A DNA stretch of 64,000 nucleotides from Thermoguttaceae bacterium (GCA_025060325.1 JANXBW010000003.1:62001-126000), one strand, 5' to 3'; counted from the stretch's first letter, positions 7,545 to 16,266 are shown. Program-made: numbers and translations. The notes: generated by a model not told the origin, from the sequence alone.

Positions 7545-9767
7545 TTAATGCGGTTGGATTACCACTCCCCGGAGGCGGTTCCACTCCTCCGTGGGAACAT
7601 AATGTAGTTTGAGCGTTGCCAACAGTTTGTCCGGGACAAGCCCCCTTCGAATCTTGGTTTCAACTCTGCCACCTTTTCCCGGGTCCGTAACGAGCACCGG
7701 GCCTCTGGTGACAACCTCTGTCGACCTAGAGGTATAAAAGGCCACGGTGATAACCCCGAGCTCCTCGGCATAATCCCATGCAGAGTATTGCTTGGGATCT
7801 TTGGCCTCCCCCACGATAAACTCCCGATATTCGAGTTCGCCAGTGTACGAACTGCGTTTGCTTCTGTCAGATGTCTGGGAGGAGGATGCTGCTTCTGGCA
7901 ACCTAGAGACAAACCCCGGGATAAACACCAATCCCACTTTGGATTGGCTGACGGACAGAAACCAGGGGCGGGCCGCGCGGATATCCACGAATTGCCCGGG
8001 TTCTTCACGGGCCTCCGGTTCAACCGCCTTAGCCTTTAGTCCCTCACTTCGAACCCGCGGTTTTTCCGGCAGCGTATTCTTTCCGTCGACGAGAACACGG
8101 GCAAGGATCAACCAGGGTCTGTCAGCGTGGTCTTCGTCCCTGAAGCAAGGGAAATGCTCGCTGAGAAGCGGATGAACTTTGGCTCCGTCGATTCGGAGGT
8201 AAATTTGGTAGACATCGCCCGGGTCCAAGGGTACGTATACACGAGAGTCAACAATTTTGAGCGGTCGCGGCTGCCCACGAACAGATACAAAAACTTGGAA
8301 GGGAGAGTCTTTTCCCTGCCAAGGGCGCTCTTGCGGCGCTTCGGGAACCCATCCATCACGCGGTTCCGCTTCGACGCTTTTGTCTTCAAGTTGGGCGCGG
8401 AGCTCGTTGGGTACCTGAGCAAGCACGCGGAAATCAGCTCGGACGGCCGGCGCCTCTGCTGATCGCAACACGACACGGAGGCGGACATTTGGTGGCTCCC
8501 ATTCCTCCAGCGTGCCTGCGACCACGGCGCCAGGGCTCAATTCTGGAAGAGGAAGGTCGAGCTGAGGTTTGGTCAAAACATCCTCGCTGGACACACCCAG
8601 TTTTCGAAAGTGTTGCTGGACAAACTCGCGCACAAGGACCTCAAACATTCCGCCGGTGTTTGTGGTCAGCCAAGTATAAACCCTTTCGGCGCAGTAGCGT
8701 CTTGCCTCCGGCCCGAAAGAGCGACCGTTTTGGTTACCCTCCTCGATATGGAAGTCAAGGACGGCAATTTTCTGTAGACCCCTTAGTTGGGCAACAGTTG
8801 CCACTAGCTCCGCAATCTCGTCAAGCGCGCGGTCTAAAGGTTCGGGTTTAAGGCGAACGACCGGGCAGTCGGGGGAGACGCCTGGGCCAGTCAATCGGTC
8901 GGGATTTTGCTCGGATCGGAGGACGTTTTGAGCCACATCCCTCACCCGCTCCAGGGTGTAGTAATAAAGCTCATCCGCGGTGATCATGGCATCGGGCTTA
9001 CCGCCAGTTCCGTCGCCATCAGCCTGGCCCTTTAGCCCCCGGATTAACCAGTAGGTGAAAAGTGAACGCTGCTTTTCTCTCCATACCCAGCTTTTTTCGC
9101 CACTGCGGCAACTGGCCAATACGTAAACACCGGGCAGGTCGATAAAGCCTCTCTGAATACCGGAAATCCGAAGTTTTGAATCCTCGGGCTTTCCTGGGTC
9201 TCCAGCATGGCAGGTGTCTAGAATGAGCAGCTTGAGTTTGCCTTTGGCTCCTTGCAACTGCTGCCGCAACCATGGCACCGGGATTGCTGTTTCAGCTAGC
9301 CGATCTGGGTCGACGTCGACTGGCAGAAAATAATACTGTCCATCGTGGTGCCTAACTCCGTGACCACTTAAGTACACAACGATAACCGTGTTCTCGCTCG
9401 CTCTGGACAACCGTCGCTTGAGTTCCTCCTCGATTGCTTTCTTCGTGGCTTCTCGGGCGCTTGTGGATCCATGGTTCAACAAGGAGACCACGACGTATCC
9501 TGCGGAAAGAAAGGTGGCACTTAGTTCCTCCACATCATCCCTGACGAAAGGAAGCCGGGGGACTCTCTCCGGATACTCGCCGGCTCCAATCAAAATGGCA
9601 AGCCGCTCTTCCGTCGGTGGTTCCGAAAAATTAGGCCCGGCTATGGCGGCGATAAAGGTGCAGGTGCCCATGAGAAGAAGCATCAAGGCCAAACTCGCGG
9701 CACTGGTTCGATTGGACAGTATCTGGAGCACGCCGTTTGCAAATTTTTGGCCGCATCGCTTTACCAT
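7545..9767 (-). CDS. Exported caspase-family (C14) protease with CsgG/FlgO-like middle domain
   Basis: 740 aa from the ATG at 9767, which is preceded by ggaggg. A GTG ten codons upstream is less likely. An N-terminal hydrophobic segment (~residues 22-43) is a signal peptide or anchor. The caspase-like p20 fold spans ~55-240, with the dyad His136 (YLSGHGV) and Cys186 (ILDTCHAG). Next, ~330-460 contains IAVLDF followed by EVLVREFVQQHF, resembling CsgG/FlgO/TolB-like domains. The C-terminal ~250 residues are unassigned. It is the last gene of the seven-gene minus-strand operon, about 50 nt after another caspase. Bacterial caspases usually cut after Arg or Lys, and the target here is unknown. The protease call is firm. 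Export and the middle domain are inferred. Confidence 0.85.
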   Translation of the reverse strand: MVKRCGQKFANGVLQILSNRTSAASLALMLLLMGTCTFIAAIAGPNFSEPPTEERLAILIGAGEYPERVPRLPFVRDDVEELSATFLSAGYVVVSLLNHGSTSAREATKKAIEEELKRRLSRASENTVIVVYLSGHGVRHHDGQYYFLPVDVDPDRLAETAIPVPWLRQQLQGAKGKLKLLILDTCHAGDPGKPEDSKLRISGIQRGFIDLPGVYVLASCRSGEKSWVWREKQRSLFTYWLIRGLKGQADGDGTGGKPDAMITADELYYYTLERVRDVAQNVLRSEQNPDRLTGPGVSPDCPVVRLKPEPLDRALDEIAELVATVAQLRGLQKIAVLDFHIEEGNQNGRSFGPEARRYCAERVYTWLTTNTGGMFEVLVREFVQQHFRKLGVSSEDVLTKPQLDLPLPELSPGAVVAGTLEEWEPPNVRLRVVLRSAEAPAVRADFRVLAQVPNELRAQLEDKSVEAEPRDGWVPEAPQERPWQGKDSPFQVFVSVRGQPRPLKIVDSRVYVPLDPGDVYQIYLRIDGAKVHPLLSEHFPCFRDEDHADRPWLILARVLVDGKNTLPEKPRVRSEGLKAKAVEPEAREEPGQFVDIRAARPWFLSVSQSKVGLVFIPGFVSRLPEAASSSQTSDRSKRSSYTGELEYREFIVGEAKDPKQYSAWDYAEELGVITVAFYTSRSTEVVTRGPVLVTDPGKGGRVETKIRRGLVPDKLLATLKLHYVPTEEWNRLRGVVIQPH

Positions 9768-9818
9768 TTGCAAACCCTCCGCGTTTTTAACCCCCACGAA
9801 GAGGCTGAATCGTCAACA

Positions 9819-11213
9819 TCACGGCTTCAGGAAGAATCTTTCAGCTACGGTTTCGCCGAATAGCCGCGGCACTTGGCGTCGCACCCCCCATTCCTTTTCT
9901 ACATATCTCGGTACCTGGATGACCAAATACTCCCAAGTAGTTTTCAGCTGCACTGGGGCAGTGATTTGCTGCAGGTACTCCACCAAGAATCGCGTCATCA
10001 CGGAGAGCTTCCCATCACGACAAACGAAGGACAGCTCATCGGCGTGGGAGGAGGTAAGTAGAGCGACCTCCGCGCCCAGGTCCTTCACCAATCCTAGCTC
10101 CCGATCAAGGTCATCCAGTACATCGAAACCGTCGCTTTCTTCTTCGGCTAGAGGCCCACTGTCGTCCAGTCTCAGCGACTTATCGAAAGCACTTTGGCCG
10201 CCGCCGTAGCATGCGTCCACAATAACTGCCACTCGACGGCCGTCCAGTTCCTGTATCCAGCGGCTCAGTTCGTCATCCAGGATGACAGAGATCGGCGTGG
10301 GAGAATTGCTCCCCGAAGGAACGGCAAATCCGGCATCGTGCGGTACCAAATACTCATCAGTCCCATCTGGCTCATCGTTATTATCGTCGGCGCAGCGTGC
10401 CCCATGGCCGCTGAAGTAAATGAGGACCTCATCACCGGGTCGGGTTTCCCGCGGAAGCGTCACACAAATGGCCTGGCGAATGGCCTCCGCAGTCGCTTGT
10501 TCATCCACAAGTGTAGAAATCTTATCCATCTGCCCGTAACGCTCGAGAACTTCTCGGAGAGCCTGAACATCATGCTGCGGCGCTTCAAGGGGCCGGAGAT
10601 ATCGATGCGCATTCCTAAATTTGCCGACCCCGATTAACAACGCCACGCGGCGAGGGCCCGTTTGCTTTGGTGAGGTGGGATAAGTTTCAATTTCGACCTC
10701 GTGTTCAGCCCAAGTAGCTGGCTTGCGTTCGACCACGACGCTCTTCAACTCACGGAAGTCAACACCCGTGGTAGTCCGCTCGCGCACCTTCGCTGGGTCA
10801 AACGACTTTAAATCTAGCGGCCTTTCGGTAACGACAGCCCACAGGATTTCCCGCCCGAAGGGTGGCCGAATACGAAACACATAGTCTGCGTCAGGTGCAG
10901 GAATGTGGACCTTCTCGCCAGGCTTAATTCTGGCCTCTAATTGGAACTTGTTTGGCAAGATGCATATCCATTCGCCGTTGGGACGCCGATTGAACACATA
11001 GAGGTACCCGGCATGTGTTGACTGCACGGTGATCGTCAACGTCTCACCCTCGACATAAACCCTGTCCGGTTGGTCGACAGAAATTCGGACGTAGAAGGCC
11101 GGTTGGCGATTGCGAATCTTGTCCTCGCAGGTATCACCGCCCTTCGGTTGGCCAGAGAAACCGAGAACCGGCACTAAAGCTAATGCGACTAGCCCGCACC
11201 AGACGCCCTTCAT
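9819..11213 (-). CDS. Exported caspase-family (C14) protease with N-terminal DUF4384-like domain
   Basis: 464 aa from the ATG at 11213, which has aaaggag upstream and begins a clear signal peptide (MKGVWCGLVALALVPVLGFS). Residues ~40-140 form a DUF4384-like beta domain with GYLYVFNRRPNG. The caspase domain occupies ~185-430: it begins RRVALLIGVGKF, has His270 (IYFSGHGAR) and Cys335 (VIVDACYGG), and is followed by a Ser/Asp-rich segment. An acidic loop after the catalytic His (DDNNDEPDG) resembles calcium-binding loops of metacaspases; this is inference. It is the sixth gene of the sigma-factor operon. The upstream transglutaminase-like protein carries a related DUF4384-like domain, which suggests the two act at the same place in the cell envelope. 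Confidence 0.87.
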   Translation of the reverse strand: MKGVWCGLVALALVPVLGFSGQPKGGDTCEDKIRNRQPAFYVRISVDQPDRVYVEGETLTITVQSTHAGYLYVFNRRPNGEWICILPNKFQLEARIKPGEKVHIPAPDADYVFRIRPPFGREILWAVVTERPLDLKSFDPAKVRERTTTGVDFRELKSVVVERKPATWAEHEVEIETYPTSPKQTGPRRVALLIGVGKFRNAHRYLRPLEAPQHDVQALREVLERYGQMDKISTLVDEQATAEAIRQAICVTLPRETRPGDEVLIYFSGHGARCADDNNDEPDGTDEYLVPHDAGFAVPSGSNSPTPISVILDDELSRWIQELDGRRVAVIVDACYGGGQSAFDKSLRLDDSGPLAEEESDGFDVLDDLDRELGLVKDLGAEVALLTSSHADELSFVCRDGKLSVMTRFLVEYLQQITAPVQLKTTWEYLVIQVPRYVEKEWGVRRQVPRLFGETVAERFFLKP

Positions 11214-11265
11214 CGCTCGTCTCCTTTTGGCAATCCCGCTTCCGAGCAAGGACGCGGTTAAGTAC

Positions 11266-12933
11266 CTACTTAACTTGTCCCGACACCTCACGGGGAGCCG
11301 GCACGTAGAACGCTACCTCGTCCTGAGCAAAGCCACCCAGGGATTCAATGAACACCCTCTCTAGTGCCGCTGGGGGCTTGTCTCCACGCGTGTACTCCAT
11401 CAACACCTCCCGCATCACCTTCTTGCTTGCCGGATGCCAGTGGAAGCTCCCGCCCTTTGTCGACAAGCGAGTGGGCCCTCCCGTTCTGCCAGCAGAACCC
11501 GGCGCTGACCCGCTCTGTTGAGACTCTGCCAAGAGGCCCACCATTCGAATCGGCTTGCGAGTGATCACTGCCTTCAACCGGTAAACCCCAGGTTGATTTG
11601 GCACACGAAAGGCAAGGAGATCGCTCGGTTTGGGAACTTCAAACATCCCCTCCACGGCGTTGTTCTGGCCCACATGCGGATAGAGCAATCGCAGCTCGTA
11701 GGAAGGATCAATCAAAAAGATGTACAAAAAGCCTTTCTCAGCTGTGGCCCCTACAACGCTGTAGGTCTCCCCCGGCTGATAGGCGGCACCATCGAACCGG
11801 TCGACAGTGACATCAAACTTGAATGACGAAGTTCGCGAGGTTACTAGGGCAAGAAGCTCCTGGGGGCTAAGCACCAGCTCTCGGTCCGTGAGTGTCTCCG
11901 TGGCCGAACTTCTATCGGGCGGACGGTGTCGGGGTTGCTCGGACGAGGAACTTGGCTGACCAGACCCCCCGGATCTAGACTCGTCGGGCCTCGACGGCGG
12001 GGAGGGAGGAGGCGGCGCAGGGGGTGTGGGGTGGCCATCTTCTGAGGGCTGTTGGGGATCCTCTTCTCGCCAGCTTCCAATTTGGGTAAGCAACTGTGTG
12101 ACCAATCGGTAATCTACCTCCGGGTTTTCCGCAACCGCCATATACGGATACCATGCGAAGTCCGGATGATCCTGTCCACTAATCCCCGTCCATCGGCCGG
12201 AGCCCATGACCACAGCTCCGTCCTCCATTCGGAAATTAAACGTGTACGTATGCTTGCGCACTTGGAGACCCACAAAGTCCGGCGGCACCGAGCTATCCGC
12301 CATCCACAAGGTTAGCTGTCCCCGAAACTCTCCCGACCTCCGCGTCTGATCGTAAACAATTCGGTAGGCAAAGACCGGGTAATTCCACACCTCGGGGCCG
12401 GGCTCGATGTCTAGGACTAACGGCACGCCCCGCTCCCGAACGTATAGTCTTAGCAGGTGCCACAATTGATCCGGGGCAATGTCCTGGGGATCCTCCGGCC
12501 CTTCCCCGTCACTGAATCGCTCTCCGTAAATCTCGGCCACATCAGCGGTATGACATGCAGCCAGCCACCCCTTCTGATAGCCGACAGAGACTTGTACTTC
12601 CTCTCTCCCTGTGGAGCTACGCAGTGCGCCGGCCACCCTTGGTTCAGGCTCCATCACCGCTGCTGCGGCCGTGGCGTGACAATATCCGTGCCAAGGCGGC
12701 GCCTGCGGGTTGGCTCGGCCTTCCTGCTCTTCCCAGCGGGCAGCTTGTTTGCCTGTCAACCGATCGTACCGAAGAAGCGGACCAGTTAGACCTCCGGCGT
12801 GGAATGGCCACCAATAGCCTGACCATGGAAAATGAGTTACCTCCGCTTCTTCAACCACATTCTCCGCCATAGCGGGCAGGGAGCTTGTCCCCAAAAGCCC
12901 TGTCAGCAACACGAGCACAGTTGTCGCTCGCAT
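11266..12933 (-). CDS. Exported transglutaminase-like (elicitor type) protein with DUF4384-like domain
   Basis: 555 aa, with aaaggag eight bases before the ATG. A signal peptide covers residues 1-23 (cut near AMA-EN). Residues ~35-290 resemble the transglutaminase-elicitor/papain-like family: WHGYCHATAAAAV puts a candidate nucleophile at Cys85 after a Trp, and VWNYPVFAY is a later family-like motif. A Pro/Ser-rich linker (~295-345) leads to a DUF4384-like domain (~355-465; GFLYIFLIDPS). It could cross-link or cleave proteins at Gln or peptide bonds outside the cytoplasm, but catalysis is unproven and the assignment rests on motif recall. Fifth gene of the sigma/caspase operon. Confidence 0.65.
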   Translation of the reverse strand: MRATTVLVLLTGLLGTSSLPAMAENVVEEAEVTHFPWSGYWWPFHAGGLTGPLLRYDRLTGKQAARWEEQEGRANPQAPPWHGYCHATAAAAVMEPEPRVAGALRSSTGREEVQVSVGYQKGWLAACHTADVAEIYGERFSDGEGPEDPQDIAPDQLWHLLRLYVRERGVPLVLDIEPGPEVWNYPVFAYRIVYDQTRRSGEFRGQLTLWMADSSVPPDFVGLQVRKHTYTFNFRMEDGAVVMGSGRWTGISGQDHPDFAWYPYMAVAENPEVDYRLVTQLLTQIGSWREEDPQQPSEDGHPTPPAPPPPSPPSRPDESRSGGSGQPSSSSEQPRHRPPDRSSATETLTDRELVLSPQELLALVTSRTSSFKFDVTVDRFDGAAYQPGETYSVVGATAEKGFLYIFLIDPSYELRLLYPHVGQNNAVEGMFEVPKPSDLLAFRVPNQPGVYRLKAVITRKPIRMVGLLAESQQSGSAPGSAGRTGGPTRLSTKGGSFHWHPASKKVMREVLMEYTRGDKPPAALERVFIESLGGFAQDEVAFYVPAPREVSGQVK

Positions 12934-12966
12934 GAACCAAACTCCTTTCCAAAGTCTGGCGTACCC

Positions 12967-13761
12967 CTAGTCGGCAGTAACTAACCGGGATACGCTAATG
13001 CCATTAGTTGCCCAGACTGGCCACGGCTGGCCCGCTTGCCAAAGTTGTTGACAATGTCCTATCGGGCTTCGAACATCAATCTTCACCACACCGGCCGGGG
13101 AAGGATGATCCGCGGGCAGCCCGAGGACTGATTTAGTGAACCTTTCTTCGGGGGAATCGCTTTCCTGCTCGACCGGCACAACGAAGGCCACATCCGCTGG
13201 CGTCTTGGCCTCCGCATGTCCCGGAACCACCTCGTACCGGTAACTGTGCACATGTTTAACCGGAACCTCTTCCCAACATGGGAAAGCCACGGGCAACACC
13301 GTAAGCGGTACCCAAGCCGGATAGTTCGGGGACTCTTTCGCGACTAGAGTTTCCCCGGTTCTCACCGGCCGGCCAGAGGCAATTACTGAGGCCTCCCACC
13401 GCCGTAGGAGGAGTCGGTCTGTACTAATCCACAACCGCAGTTCAAGATTTTCCGACTGAGCAGCTTGGGGACGTGCTGAGAGCACGTAGCATTTTTCGTT
13501 GTCAAGCTCCGCAGTGCCTTCAACGGTAAACTTCCAACGTAGAATGGCTTCACTTTTGGCCTGATCCAACTCGCGACCAATTTGAAGCAACGGTGTTCGC
13601 GTCTCCACGATCCAGGATTGCCCCACTTGCCACGATGGTTTGTAGGCCGCAAGCGGTTGCGACACCTCAAGAGGATTCTGCTGAGAACTTGCCTGCCTGC
13701 TACCCAATGTCACTGCCAGCGCGCCGAGCACGAGCAGGTAAACTGCCGAATAACGGTTCAT
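12967..13761 (-). CDS. Exported protein of unknown function
   Basis: 264 aa from the ATG at 13761, preceded by acggaggc; a longer frame begins at 13791. The N-terminus (NRYSAVYLLVLGALAVTLG) is a signal peptide. The mature part is mostly beta-like, with WQVGQSWIVETRT near its start, which recalls exported DUF-type beta-sandwich proteins of planctomycetes. No catalytic motif is seen. It is gene four of the seven-gene operon, between the TPR/anti-sigma protein and the transglutaminase-like protein, so a structural or sensory role in the same envelope pathway is likely. Confidence 0.8.
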   Translation of the reverse strand: MNRYSAVYLLVLGALAVTLGSRQASSQQNPLEVSQPLAAYKPSWQVGQSWIVETRTPLLQIGRELDQAKSEAILRWKFTVEGTAELDNEKCYVLSARPQAAQSENLELRLWISTDRLLLRRWEASVIASGRPVRTGETLVAKESPNYPAWVPLTVLPVAFPCWEEVPVKHVHSYRYEVVPGHAEAKTPADVAFVVPVEQESDSPEERFTKSVLGLPADHPSPAGVVKIDVRSPIGHCQQLWQAGQPWPVWATNGISVSRLVTAD

Positions 13762-13834
13762 TGCAGGCCTCCGTTTGGCTTTTCGGGCCAAAGTGTGTTC
13801 ATAAGGCGACTAAAGGCCTTTGCCAAAGCTCAGC

Positions 13835-15262
13835 CTAGTTGTTCTGTGTTGACCGCTCTAGATGGAGTTCTATCTGTGCACGAATTCCGGCCGGCAGCTC
13901 CGAGTAAGGAATAGCCGACCAAAGCTTTCGAGCTTCTAACTTTCGGCCAAGAGCCTCGTAACAAATGGCCAAATTGATTTTTGCCGGGAGATAGTCAGGA
14001 GCGGAAGCAAGAGCATCTTCGAAGTAGCGAGTAGCCTGCTCTGTGTCGCAGGAGTCAAACGCCACAAGGCCTAGGCCAACAAGTGCTCGTGCGTTGCCGG
14101 GAGCTGTTGACAAGACTTGTTCAAAACATTTGCGCGCCTGCTCGAAGTCGCCGATTTTAAAGCGTAGATATCCGTAATTGAGGAGCAAGTTGACGTCATG
14201 GGGAAACTCTTTAATGCTTTGTCTATACTCTTCTAGCAGCCGGGCCGTGGTAAGTCCCATCGGAAACGGCGGTGCGCCACCTTGCGGAATCATTTCAGGT
14301 TTTGCTTGCTGTTGCCTCCCCGCTTGATCCTGGCCCGGAGGCAACGGGGATCTGGGCTCCGGCGATCTAGCCTCACCGGGCCCGTTGTCAACACTTGCCG
14401 GTGGGCTCGCGACCCCTTCGGATGGCGCAGCCGTTGGGGGAGCCGGGGCCGCTGGATGCGATGGGGCGCTAGGAGATGCCGCTCCTGGCTCGATTGGCTC
14501 GGGGCCCAACATTACCGCTTTCATGTAGCTACGGCCATCCGGTTCGTATCCAAAATGAAGTAACGTCCCGCCCTCGTCCAAAGCGATTTCCGACCTCAAC
14601 CCTTGTTGAGCCTGCAAAGCGAGGTTTCGCAATCTGGCTGATGGACCTGGACACTGTTGGATTTTTTCCTCGGCTGCGAACACTCTGCGAAAGTCCCCCA
14701 CCCGCAGTCCCTCTCTGGCCCATCCATAGGCTGCTTCTTCCAGGAGCTGACAACCCTCAGGGGACACGGCGCCTCCCTGAGTGCGTTTCAACTCCTCAAG
14801 CAGGCGGAGCGCTTCCTCATAACGGGACGACTCGACCGCGATTTTGGCTTGGGCCAAAAGTCGGCTACTTCCCCACTCTGGACTGTAGCTCCAGATCCAG
14901 ATTATCCCTACCAACAGGCAGGCAGCCGCTGCCAATGCCACAAGACCTGGTCCAACCCTCCGGGAAAGCACGTTTACAATCCAGCGTTCGCGGAATCCCG
15001 CGACCTCGCTGAGTCTTAACTCGATAAGCTCCCCGAGAGTCCGACGGCAAGGTGAGCAGATGGCCAGATGGGCGAGCACTGCTTGGTGCTCCGCCTCCGT
15101 CAACTGCCCATCAATGACCAAACTTAAAAAATAGTCGTCTTGGCAGAAGTGAGAAGCAGTAGAAGAATCGGCCGCCAGATCGGCCGAGGGCATCTCCTTG
15201 GCAATGACCCTTCGTGTTAGCTCGTCGAGAACCTCATCCGTGATAACATTGATCTTCTTCAT
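13835..15262 (-). CDS. Membrane zinc-finger anti-sigma factor with C-terminal TPR domain
   Basis: 475 aa from the ATG at 15262, preceded by a G-rich site (tatgggggg). The cytoplasmic N-terminus has the anti-sigma zinc signature HxxxCxxC (His65, Cys69, Cys72; HLAICSPC). A single membrane helix spans ~105-125. The periplasmic part holds a helical repeat region (~130-230), a Pro/Ala/Ser-rich linker (~260-335) and about three TPR units (~340-465; ARALVGLGLVAF, YLPAKINLAICYEALG). It directly follows the sigma factor gene, as anti-sigma genes usually do. It would hold the sigma factor at the membrane until the TPR half receives an envelope signal. Confidence 0.87.
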   Translation of the reverse strand: MKKINVITDEVLDELTRRVIAKEMPSADLAADSSTASHFCQDDYFLSLVIDGQLTEAEHQAVLAHLAICSPCRRTLGELIELRLSEVAGFRERWIVNVLSRRVGPGLVALAAAACLLVGIIWIWSYSPEWGSSRLLAQAKIAVESSRYEEALRLLEELKRTQGGAVSPEGCQLLEEAAYGWAREGLRVGDFRRVFAAEEKIQQCPGPSARLRNLALQAQQGLRSEIALDEGGTLLHFGYEPDGRSYMKAVMLGPEPIEPGAASPSAPSHPAAPAPPTAAPSEGVASPPASVDNGPGEARSPEPRSPLPPGQDQAGRQQQAKPEMIPQGGAPPFPMGLTTARLLEEYRQSIKEFPHDVNLLLNYGYLRFKIGDFEQARKCFEQVLSTAPGNARALVGLGLVAFDSCDTEQATRYFEDALASAPDYLPAKINLAICYEALGRKLEARKLWSAIPYSELPAGIRAQIELHLERSTQNN

Positions 15263-15355
15263 TTTAGACCCCCCATAACTCGGCGCTGTCATCCCCGCAT
15301 GGTCAACGGCCTACAAATTGGCCCCGGGCGACCCTCGGAACCGAACACAAGCAGA

Positions 15356-16012
15356 TTACCGGTTTAAATCTTTTTCGAGCTGCTTCCTAAGCTGATTAAT
15401 GCGTCTCGAGATTGCTCCGGAGTTCGCTTTGAGGGCAATGGCAATCACCTCTTGGCTGAAGCCTTCCGCTTTCATCTTCAGAATGATCTGGTCTGACGGA
15501 GGCAACCCCGCAAAAATCTCGCAAAATCGCGCCTCGAGTTCGTGATAACGAGCGACTCTTTCTGGATCGTCATCAAAGCGGGGTTGAGCAGCCGGCAATT
15601 CGTCCGGCCGGGGAACGCACTTCCCGCCCAGAGCGTTGTCTTTACGCTTCTTGTCGACGAGCACGTGAGCGATGATGGTTTTGAGCCAGCTGTAGAGACT
15701 GCCACGAGCTTTGTAAGACGAGTACCCGCGCCAAACTTTCTCCAACGCAAAATTCGCAAGGTCCTCGGGAGTGTAGCCCGCACTCTTAGCAAGAGAGCTG
15801 TTCGCTCGAAAGACCGCCTTGGCAGCCGGCTTTAGGAATTGTTCCATCAGCTCGGTTACAGCCTGCGGCACCAAGTGACCGGCCGCCGTTACCAACATCA
15901 CTTCGCGCACAGCATCACGGCCCGCCTTTTCCTGCCCCAGCCCTAGCTGGGAAGTCGAGGAGCGGTCACGGCCCAGGCGTCGGATCATTTCCGTCAAAGT
16001 GCAAGCACTCAT
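15356..16012 (-). CDS. ECF-like RNA polymerase sigma factor
   Basis: 218 aa. Its ATG overlaps the stop of the preceding 85-aa gene (ATGA), so translation is probably coupled. Sigma region 2 lies at ~75-125 (EDLANFALEKVWRGY; WLKTIIAHVLVDKKRK). Region 4 lies at ~165-215, with a helix-turn-helix (EVIAIALKANSGAISRRINQL). Regions 1.1 and 3 are absent, as in the ECF group. The N-terminal ~60 residues are an extension without recognised motif. It would direct polymerase to promoters of an envelope regulon, probably including its own operon; the next gene encodes its likely anti-sigma factor. Confidence 0.9.
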   Translation of the reverse strand: MSACTLTEMIRRLGRDRSSTSQLGLGQEKAGRDAVREVMLVTAAGHLVPQAVTELMEQFLKPAAKAVFRANSSLAKSAGYTPEDLANFALEKVWRGYSSYKARGSLYSWLKTIIAHVLVDKKRKDNALGGKCVPRPDELPAAQPRFDDDPERVARYHELEARFCEIFAGLPPSDQIILKMKAEGFSQEVIAIALKANSGAISRRINQLRKQLEKDLNR

Positions 16013-16266
16013 TCACCCTGTTCCTTTGATAGGCTACTCATCGCGAGTTGAAGGACCTTCGCGGCGCCTTCCTTGAACCAGTAGGGCGCGAGCTCCCAAC
16101 TTTGAGGCCGCGGCATGTTGTCAGTTGGCGCGGCCGGCCAGAGCTCCTCAAGGAGGATCTTCTGGATACGGGCTATCTTTTCGGGCCAGCTCGCACCTTC
16201 CACGAGCCGCTCAAGTGCGGCCCGATGTTCAATCAAGACCGGTTCCAGGGGATCATTAGGCGGCAT
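16009..16266 (-). CDS. 85-aa protein coupled to the sigma factor gene
   Basis: Start chosen at the ATG at 16266, which has ggaggggg immediately upstream. An open frame continues to 16413 but looks non-coding. The protein is small and helical, and contains EHRAALERLVEGASW and AKVLQLAMSSL. No domain is recognised. Its stop overlaps the sigma factor start by 4 bases, so it is the first gene of the operon and is co-translated with the sigma factor. It might be a small cofactor or regulator of the sigma factor; this is inference from position only. Confidence 0.7.
   Translation of the reverse strand: MPPNDPLEPVLIEHRAALERLVEGASWPEKIARIQKILLEELWPAAPTDNMPRPQSWELAPYWFKEGAAKVLQLAMSSLSKEQGE

Follow-up and report, generated by a model that had tools for sequence, protein, structure and literature searches.

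Introduction

Predicted operons combining a sigma-70 gene with a metacaspase gene have been on record since 2012, when they were described in Myxococcus, Anaeromyxobacter, Haliangium, Sorangium, Ralstonia and Fibrobacter (PMC3501461). The locus dealt with here resembles them in that sigma and metacaspase genes share a predicted operon which several genera have conserved, and it is set apart by description: in the accessible portion of that work Planctomycetes are not listed, and neither a mechanism nor DUF4384, a transglutaminase or a fusion between anti-sigma factor and caspase is mentioned. Sigma-metacaspase operons as such thus have precedents, in myxobacteria among others; as far as the same portion of that source goes, the new elements are the occurrence in planctomycetes, the link to an anti-sigma factor and the fusion (PMC3501461).

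A precedent for the cleavage of an anti-sigma factor is given by Csx29, a caspase-like protease which cuts a sigma-factor inhibitor (PMC10028731). That type III-E CRISPR system (Csx29/Csx30/CASP-sigma) likewise places a caspase-like protease next to an ECF-like sigma factor with its inhibitor, and cleavage relieves the inhibition. However, Csx29 is an RNA-guided TPR-CHAT protease working in a CRISPR complex, whereas the present operon has predicted exported Peptidase_C14 proteins, a membrane anti-sigma factor and no Cas gene. The RseA-RpoE system with DegS/RseP is similar in that its membrane anti-sigma factor binds sigma through a cytoplasmic domain and exposes an extracytoplasmic half to a site-1 protease, but there this protease is a serine protease of the PDZ kind whose gene lies elsewhere, while here the candidate is a caspase of the same operon, once fused to the anti-sigma factor. 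Moreover, proteases, caspase relatives included, have been proposed to control the ECF54 sigma factors, which have CHAT, subtilase or carboxypeptidase neighbours; that control is proposed to work without an anti-sigma factor, whereas one is present here (PMC8999054). Finally, the p20 fold, the His-Cys dyad and the Arg/Lys-type aspartate before the cysteine are shared with the described orthocaspases and metacaspases, DUF4384 architectures among them, in papers concerned mostly with cyanobacteria, photosynthesis and cell death (PMC6426788, PMC7475262, PMC8283722).

A literature search covering few subscription journals found no paper that brings an orthocaspase and an anti-sigma factor together. 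To our knowledge, the extracytoplasmic roles of bacterial caspases are largely unknown, and a caspase genetically tied to a gene switch provides, in the anti-sigma factor, a concrete candidate substrate. If the reading put forward below were true, an exported caspase would join the short list of sigma-releasing proteases, and a caspase-triggered transcription pathway would operate across the cell envelope.

Organization of the operon

The window, that is, the whole stretch of 64,000 nucleotides analysed, covers positions 62001-126000 of contig C33 in a 4.78-Mb draft genome (G000) of the Thermoguttaceae, Planctomycetes. Seven open reading frames, all on the minus strand, occupy its positions 7545-16266; in the order of transcription they are:

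16009..16266, minus strand: protein of 85 residues, no family match; open frame with a strong ribosome-binding sequence
15356..16012, minus strand: ECF sigma factor; TIGR02937, Sigma70_r2 and Sigma70_ECF above cut-off
13835..15292, minus strand: membrane anti-sigma factor with zf-HC2 (2.8e-9), one transmembrane helix (116-134) and many TPR matches
12967..13791, minus strand: LolA-like protein, predicted to be exported; LolA_like 6e-5, below cut-off
11266..12933, minus strand: transglutaminase-domain protein carrying a DUF4384-like domain at its C-terminus, predicted to be exported; TGase_elicitor 1.8e-12, DUF4384 2e-5
9819..11291, minus strand: DUF4384-metacaspase, predicted to be exported; DUF4384 9e-20, Peptidase_C14 7e-19
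7545..9797, minus strand: metacaspase with a C-terminal extension of about 450 residues, predicted to be exported; Peptidase_C14 8e-17

The preliminary description had claimed seven tightly spaced genes in this order, with an overlap, and all seven frames were found open, on the minus strand and at the coordinates given. The overlap, of 4 nt, joins the genes of the 85-residue protein and the sigma factor, and is followed in the 5' to 3' direction by gaps of 63, 43, 33, 49 and 21 nt. Translation of the DUF4384-caspase probably starts at about 11213, that of the LolA-like protein at 13761 and that of the 85-residue protein at 16266, the last with GGAGGGGG upstream. Since only three Pfam caspases exist in the 4.78-Mb genome, two of them inside the operon, and since the complete gene order is also present in another genome of the genus (G001), this clustering is not a matter of chance. 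Between both genomes the transglutaminase and the two caspases are strongly conserved (phmmer, 3e-177, 5e-126 and 5e-138), the sigma factor far less (3e-8). A comparison of upstream regions by eye for a shared autoregulatory promoter gave nothing convincing.

The 85-residue protein has no Pfam, NCBIfam or PADLOC match. A 121-residue frame takes its position in G001, with 23% identity over the aligned part, and such a small frame ahead of the sigma gene (window 16009-16266; L064:5245-5610) was found in this genus only. The idea that the N-terminal extension carried by sigma factors of the relatives has here become a separate protein was considered and rejected (hhalign probability below 1%).

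The sigma factor itself belongs to the ECF family, with 56.6 bits in TIGR02937 against the NCBIfam cut-off of 42.9, and with Sigma70_r2 and Sigma70_ECF above the Pfam cut-offs. Planctomycete ECF factors carrying N-terminal extensions are on record as ECF87-89 (PMC8103513). The relatives' sigma factors, which have an N-terminal extension, were gathered in a profile (A9). The window sigma factor is absent among the G000 matches to this profile, and that of G001 reaches 4e-5 only; the former is too divergent to be placed in the relatives' subfamily. As profiles excluding the genus recover the window anti-sigma factor and not the sigma factor, the latter has, in this genus, either diverged beyond recognition or been exchanged.

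The anti-sigma factor

The zf-HC2 domain of the anti-sigma protein scores 37.3 bits against a Pfam cut-off of 22.2 (2.8e-9), its zinc ligands being degenerate in some of the relatives' proteins. The protein would bind and inhibit the neighbouring sigma factor. Hydropathy gives a single transmembrane helix at residues 116-134, preceded by arginines, with the zinc-finger domain on its N-terminal and the TPRs on its C-terminal side. One helix with the sigma-binding domain inside the cell is therefore predicted, and the positive-inside rule would put the TPRs outside the cytoplasm. In the AlphaFold model a helix (98-135) is followed by a TPR-like block (138-247), a low-confidence linker (265-342) and a TPR block (347-484), so that the arm is modelled as two TPR blocks split by a disordered linker, a linker which is missing from many relatives. 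Foldseek searches with this model matched essentially TPR proteins.

The window protein is a member of the relatives' anti-sigma family, being the top G000 match of a profile from which its own genus had been excluded, both for the TPR half (9e-30) and for the anti-sigma/transmembrane half (2e-24). Its architecture is compatible with RseA-like regulated proteolysis. No conserved cleavage site was seen by eye in the anti-sigma alignments.

Predicted exported proteins and caspases

A hydropathy scan revealed hydrophobic N-termini of the export type on both caspases and on the transglutaminase, which would therefore share the compartment of the TPR arm; the earlier idea that the caspases are exported and meet the TPR half on the extracytoplasmic side is thus borne out at the level of prediction, export and membrane topology being read from N-terminal segments and transmembrane helices. 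The protein formerly described as an exported unknown is a less uniform case: in the window copy its N-terminus does not reach the threshold of the scan, while it is clear in several relatives. Homologs in the relatives lie immediately upstream of the transglutaminase gene, and the protein can now be given a sub-threshold LolA_like match. In the proposed transglutaminase-like DUF4384 protein the transglutaminase domain was recovered, while DUF4384 falls below the Pfam cut-off in the window copy (2e-5) and reaches up to 4e-17 in relatives.

Both caspases are of the metacaspase/orthocaspase type (C14), having the caspase domain, the His-Cys dyad and an acidic residue ahead of the cysteine. The dyad is kept in the DUF4384-caspase (SGHG / VDAC) and in the second metacaspase (SGHG / LDTC), whose catalytic His and Cys are invariant in 11 relatives. 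In both, an aspartate stands two residues before the cysteine, a feature that in metacaspases goes with cleavage after Arg or Lys, the specificity that the window caspases would be expected to have. The best PDB sequence matches of the DUF4384-caspase are metacaspase structures, and the AlphaFold model of the second caspase gave a caspase/paracaspase fold in Foldseek. The structural hits covering the C-terminal region of the latter were discarded, as the MALT1 alignments extending past the caspase domain have an rmsd above 10 and little meaning.

Other assignments were also considered. The scores for the EACC1-associated caspase (NF047832) are 107 and 58 bits, below its threshold of 140 bits. 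A Csx29-type CHAT system was rejected, the CHAT match of 15 bits lying under the cut-off of 24, as was membership in a defence system, the operon proteins matching only the generic caspase model of PADLOC.

Recurrence in other planctomycetes

The preliminary description had proposed to look for the gene order in other planctomycetes. The full order is present in G001, and sigma factor, anti-sigma factor and caspase are found together at 12 loci (G000, G001, G007, G025, G045, G099, G108, G147, G165, G203, L099 and L098, the last two being the MAGs Blastopirellula NORP48 and Planctomycetaceae HKST-UBA72, respectively). These span at least three GTDB families, G165 and G203 belonging to other families within the same taxonomic order. 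Overlaps of 4 nt occur between sigma and anti-sigma genes (L065, L075, L098, L198, L200) as well as between anti-sigma and caspase genes (L065, L197, L198, L203). On the other hand, the third genome of the genus (G002) has no match to the DUF4384-caspase or anti-sigma profile, which makes the operon accessory.

The content of the loci varies. The one in G165 comprises sigma factor, anti-sigma factor, caspase, LolA-like protein, transglutaminase, DUF4384-caspase and one caspase more. A single frame encodes both the LolA-like and the transglutaminase part in L099, and in G047 the sigma/anti-sigma pair adjoins the module on the opposite strand. Four loci have the regulatory pair with a caspase and lack the LolA-like/transglutaminase/DUF4384-caspase block (G007, G108, G147, G203); among them G007 and G203 are minimal, with sigma factor, anti-sigma factor and one caspase, overlapping or tightly spaced. 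Conversely, the block is present at five loci (L068, L069, L070, L085, L090) where the fetched flanks contain neither a sigma nor an anti-sigma match. Weak, divergent members of the anti-sigma and sigma families in genus g21 (L201, L202, L204) have no recognised caspase neighbour, and in G100, G129 and G148 the contigs end beside the pair, leaving the caspase neighbourhood outside the data.

As each part is found without the other, the window operon seems to be made of two units, a regulator with a caspase and a block of exported enzymes. To the former we ascribe signalling, to the latter the output, at least in part; the five loci without a recognised pair indicate that the block proteins do not need the switch, and that output probably accounts for some of the operon.

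Association of caspase and switch

Caspases are scarce, with 2 to 12 Pfam matches per genome in ten of these genomes, and a single gene placed at random would fall within 10 kb of one in 0.6-4% of cases, depending on the genome. As a control, the 163 ECF-type sigma matches from five genomes were compared: among the matches listed, the sigma gene beside this anti-sigma factor has a caspase within 10 kb in 5/5 cases, and other ECF genes have one in 2/158 (Fisher, 2.3e-8). The test still gives 3.5e-5, among the same matches, when restricted to the three genomes whose detection did not involve caspases. Furthermore, one of the two control exceptions (G203 C2:851804) sits in the same cluster.

In a tree of 78 caspase domains the linked caspases fall into several well-separated clades, with at least 8 forced label changes and 12 in the best tree, so that the link with the switch arose repeatedly; even so, their clustering greatly exceeds that of shuffled labels. 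Such repeated pairing of different caspases with the switch would be hard to explain by hitch-hiking. His and Cys are kept in 29/30 linked caspases; an earlier survey gives 64% dyad retention across Planctomycetes (PMC3501461).

The closest association is seen in the draft genome G147, where one frame (L181:2-2617, contig C465), unique among those fetched, combines the anti-sigma domain (2e-16), a transmembrane helix and Peptidase_C14 (2e-17), and overlaps an ECF sigma gene. Its caspase has an intact dyad (SGHG and DSCHSG) and occupies the position of the relatives' TPR arm, and its long C-terminal part has no Pfam match, the end resembling DUF4384 by eye. Taken as genomic evidence, these data point strongly to caspase and anti-sigma factor working together, and the link between them anticipated in the preliminary description has become a tight evolutionary association, one fusion included.

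Proposed mechanism and alternatives

Our proposal is that the exported metacaspase-type proteases act on, or with, the extracytoplasmic half of the ECF anti-sigma factor, a statement that we would place just short of probable. At rest, the anti-sigma factor would tether the sigma factor to the membrane while its own TPR arm lies outside. An envelope signal would activate the exported caspase, which would carry out site-1 cleavage of the anti-sigma factor on the C-terminal side of a basic residue; general proteolysis, intramembrane and cytoplasmic, would then remove the remainder, and the released sigma factor would transcribe its targets, probably its own operon included, the LolA-like/transglutaminase/DUF4384-caspase block being at least partly an output acting on the envelope. 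Physical contact, cleavage, its specificity and autoregulation are what we infer here. Cleavage of the anti-sigma factor by the caspase is the simplest reading of the fusion, the overlaps and the conserved catalytic residues, and we are very nearly as ready to accept it as to doubt it. The observations against it are the lack of a conserved site, the frequent absence of the linker, the single fusion, known from a draft genome, the five loci that have the block and no recognised pair, the g21 members without caspase and the window sigma factor unmatched by the relatives' profile. The wider notion, that the exported caspases are the dedicated site-1 proteases of a class of planctomycete ECF switches, once built into the anti-sigma factor, is put forward tentatively.

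The caspases could instead be outputs only, the TPR arm sensing the envelope signal in another way and the pair turning on an exported protease and cross-linking module which remodels or defends the cell surface. ECF factors usually lie in autoregulated operons, regulator and exported enzymes stand here in one operon, and at five loci the block has no sigma gene nearby, all of which fits; but the minimal loci keep precisely sigma factor, anti-sigma factor and one caspase, and an apparently active caspase placed on the anti-sigma factor itself, as in G147, is unneeded for a pure output. This explanation is quite possible, if on the whole rather doubtful, and the fusion and overlapping genes favour a caspase acting on the anti-sigma factor.

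It is unlikely that the caspase domain is a ligand-binding or docking partner altering the anti-sigma factor by contact, or that it trims a third envelope protein, the anti-sigma factor staying uncut in both cases: the substitution of the caspase for the TPR arm in the fusion and the absence of a conserved site in the alignments would agree with it, whereas a dyad so regularly kept in the linked caspases would be needless for mere binding. Far less probable still is that the genes are neighbours without any functional tie, brought together by an old cluster or shared mobility; the accessory nature of the operon, missing in the sister genome, and the existence of caspase-rich genomes speak for it, yet the conserved order, the recruitment of several caspase clades, the control comparison (5/5 versus 2/158 among the matches listed) and the fusion are all contrary to it.

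Other caspases and sigma genes

A second ECF sigma gene, not of this family, lies in G165 about 4 kb from the best Pfam caspase of that genome (G165:C94:6702-12269). Three caspases adjoining the module (L067:4196-6184, L067:12718-14826 and L098:11368-13350) have C-terminal halves that resemble, by eye, the formylglycine-generating enzyme/SUMF1, and the one in L098 has lost the catalytic cysteine. In G108 (L203), sigma and anti-sigma genes are followed by at least four consecutive caspase frames, one of 1449 residues, and in G045 the sigma/anti-sigma pair is followed directly, with 4-nt overlaps, by a fusion of a caspase with WD40-type beta-propeller repeats (L198:6861-9206).
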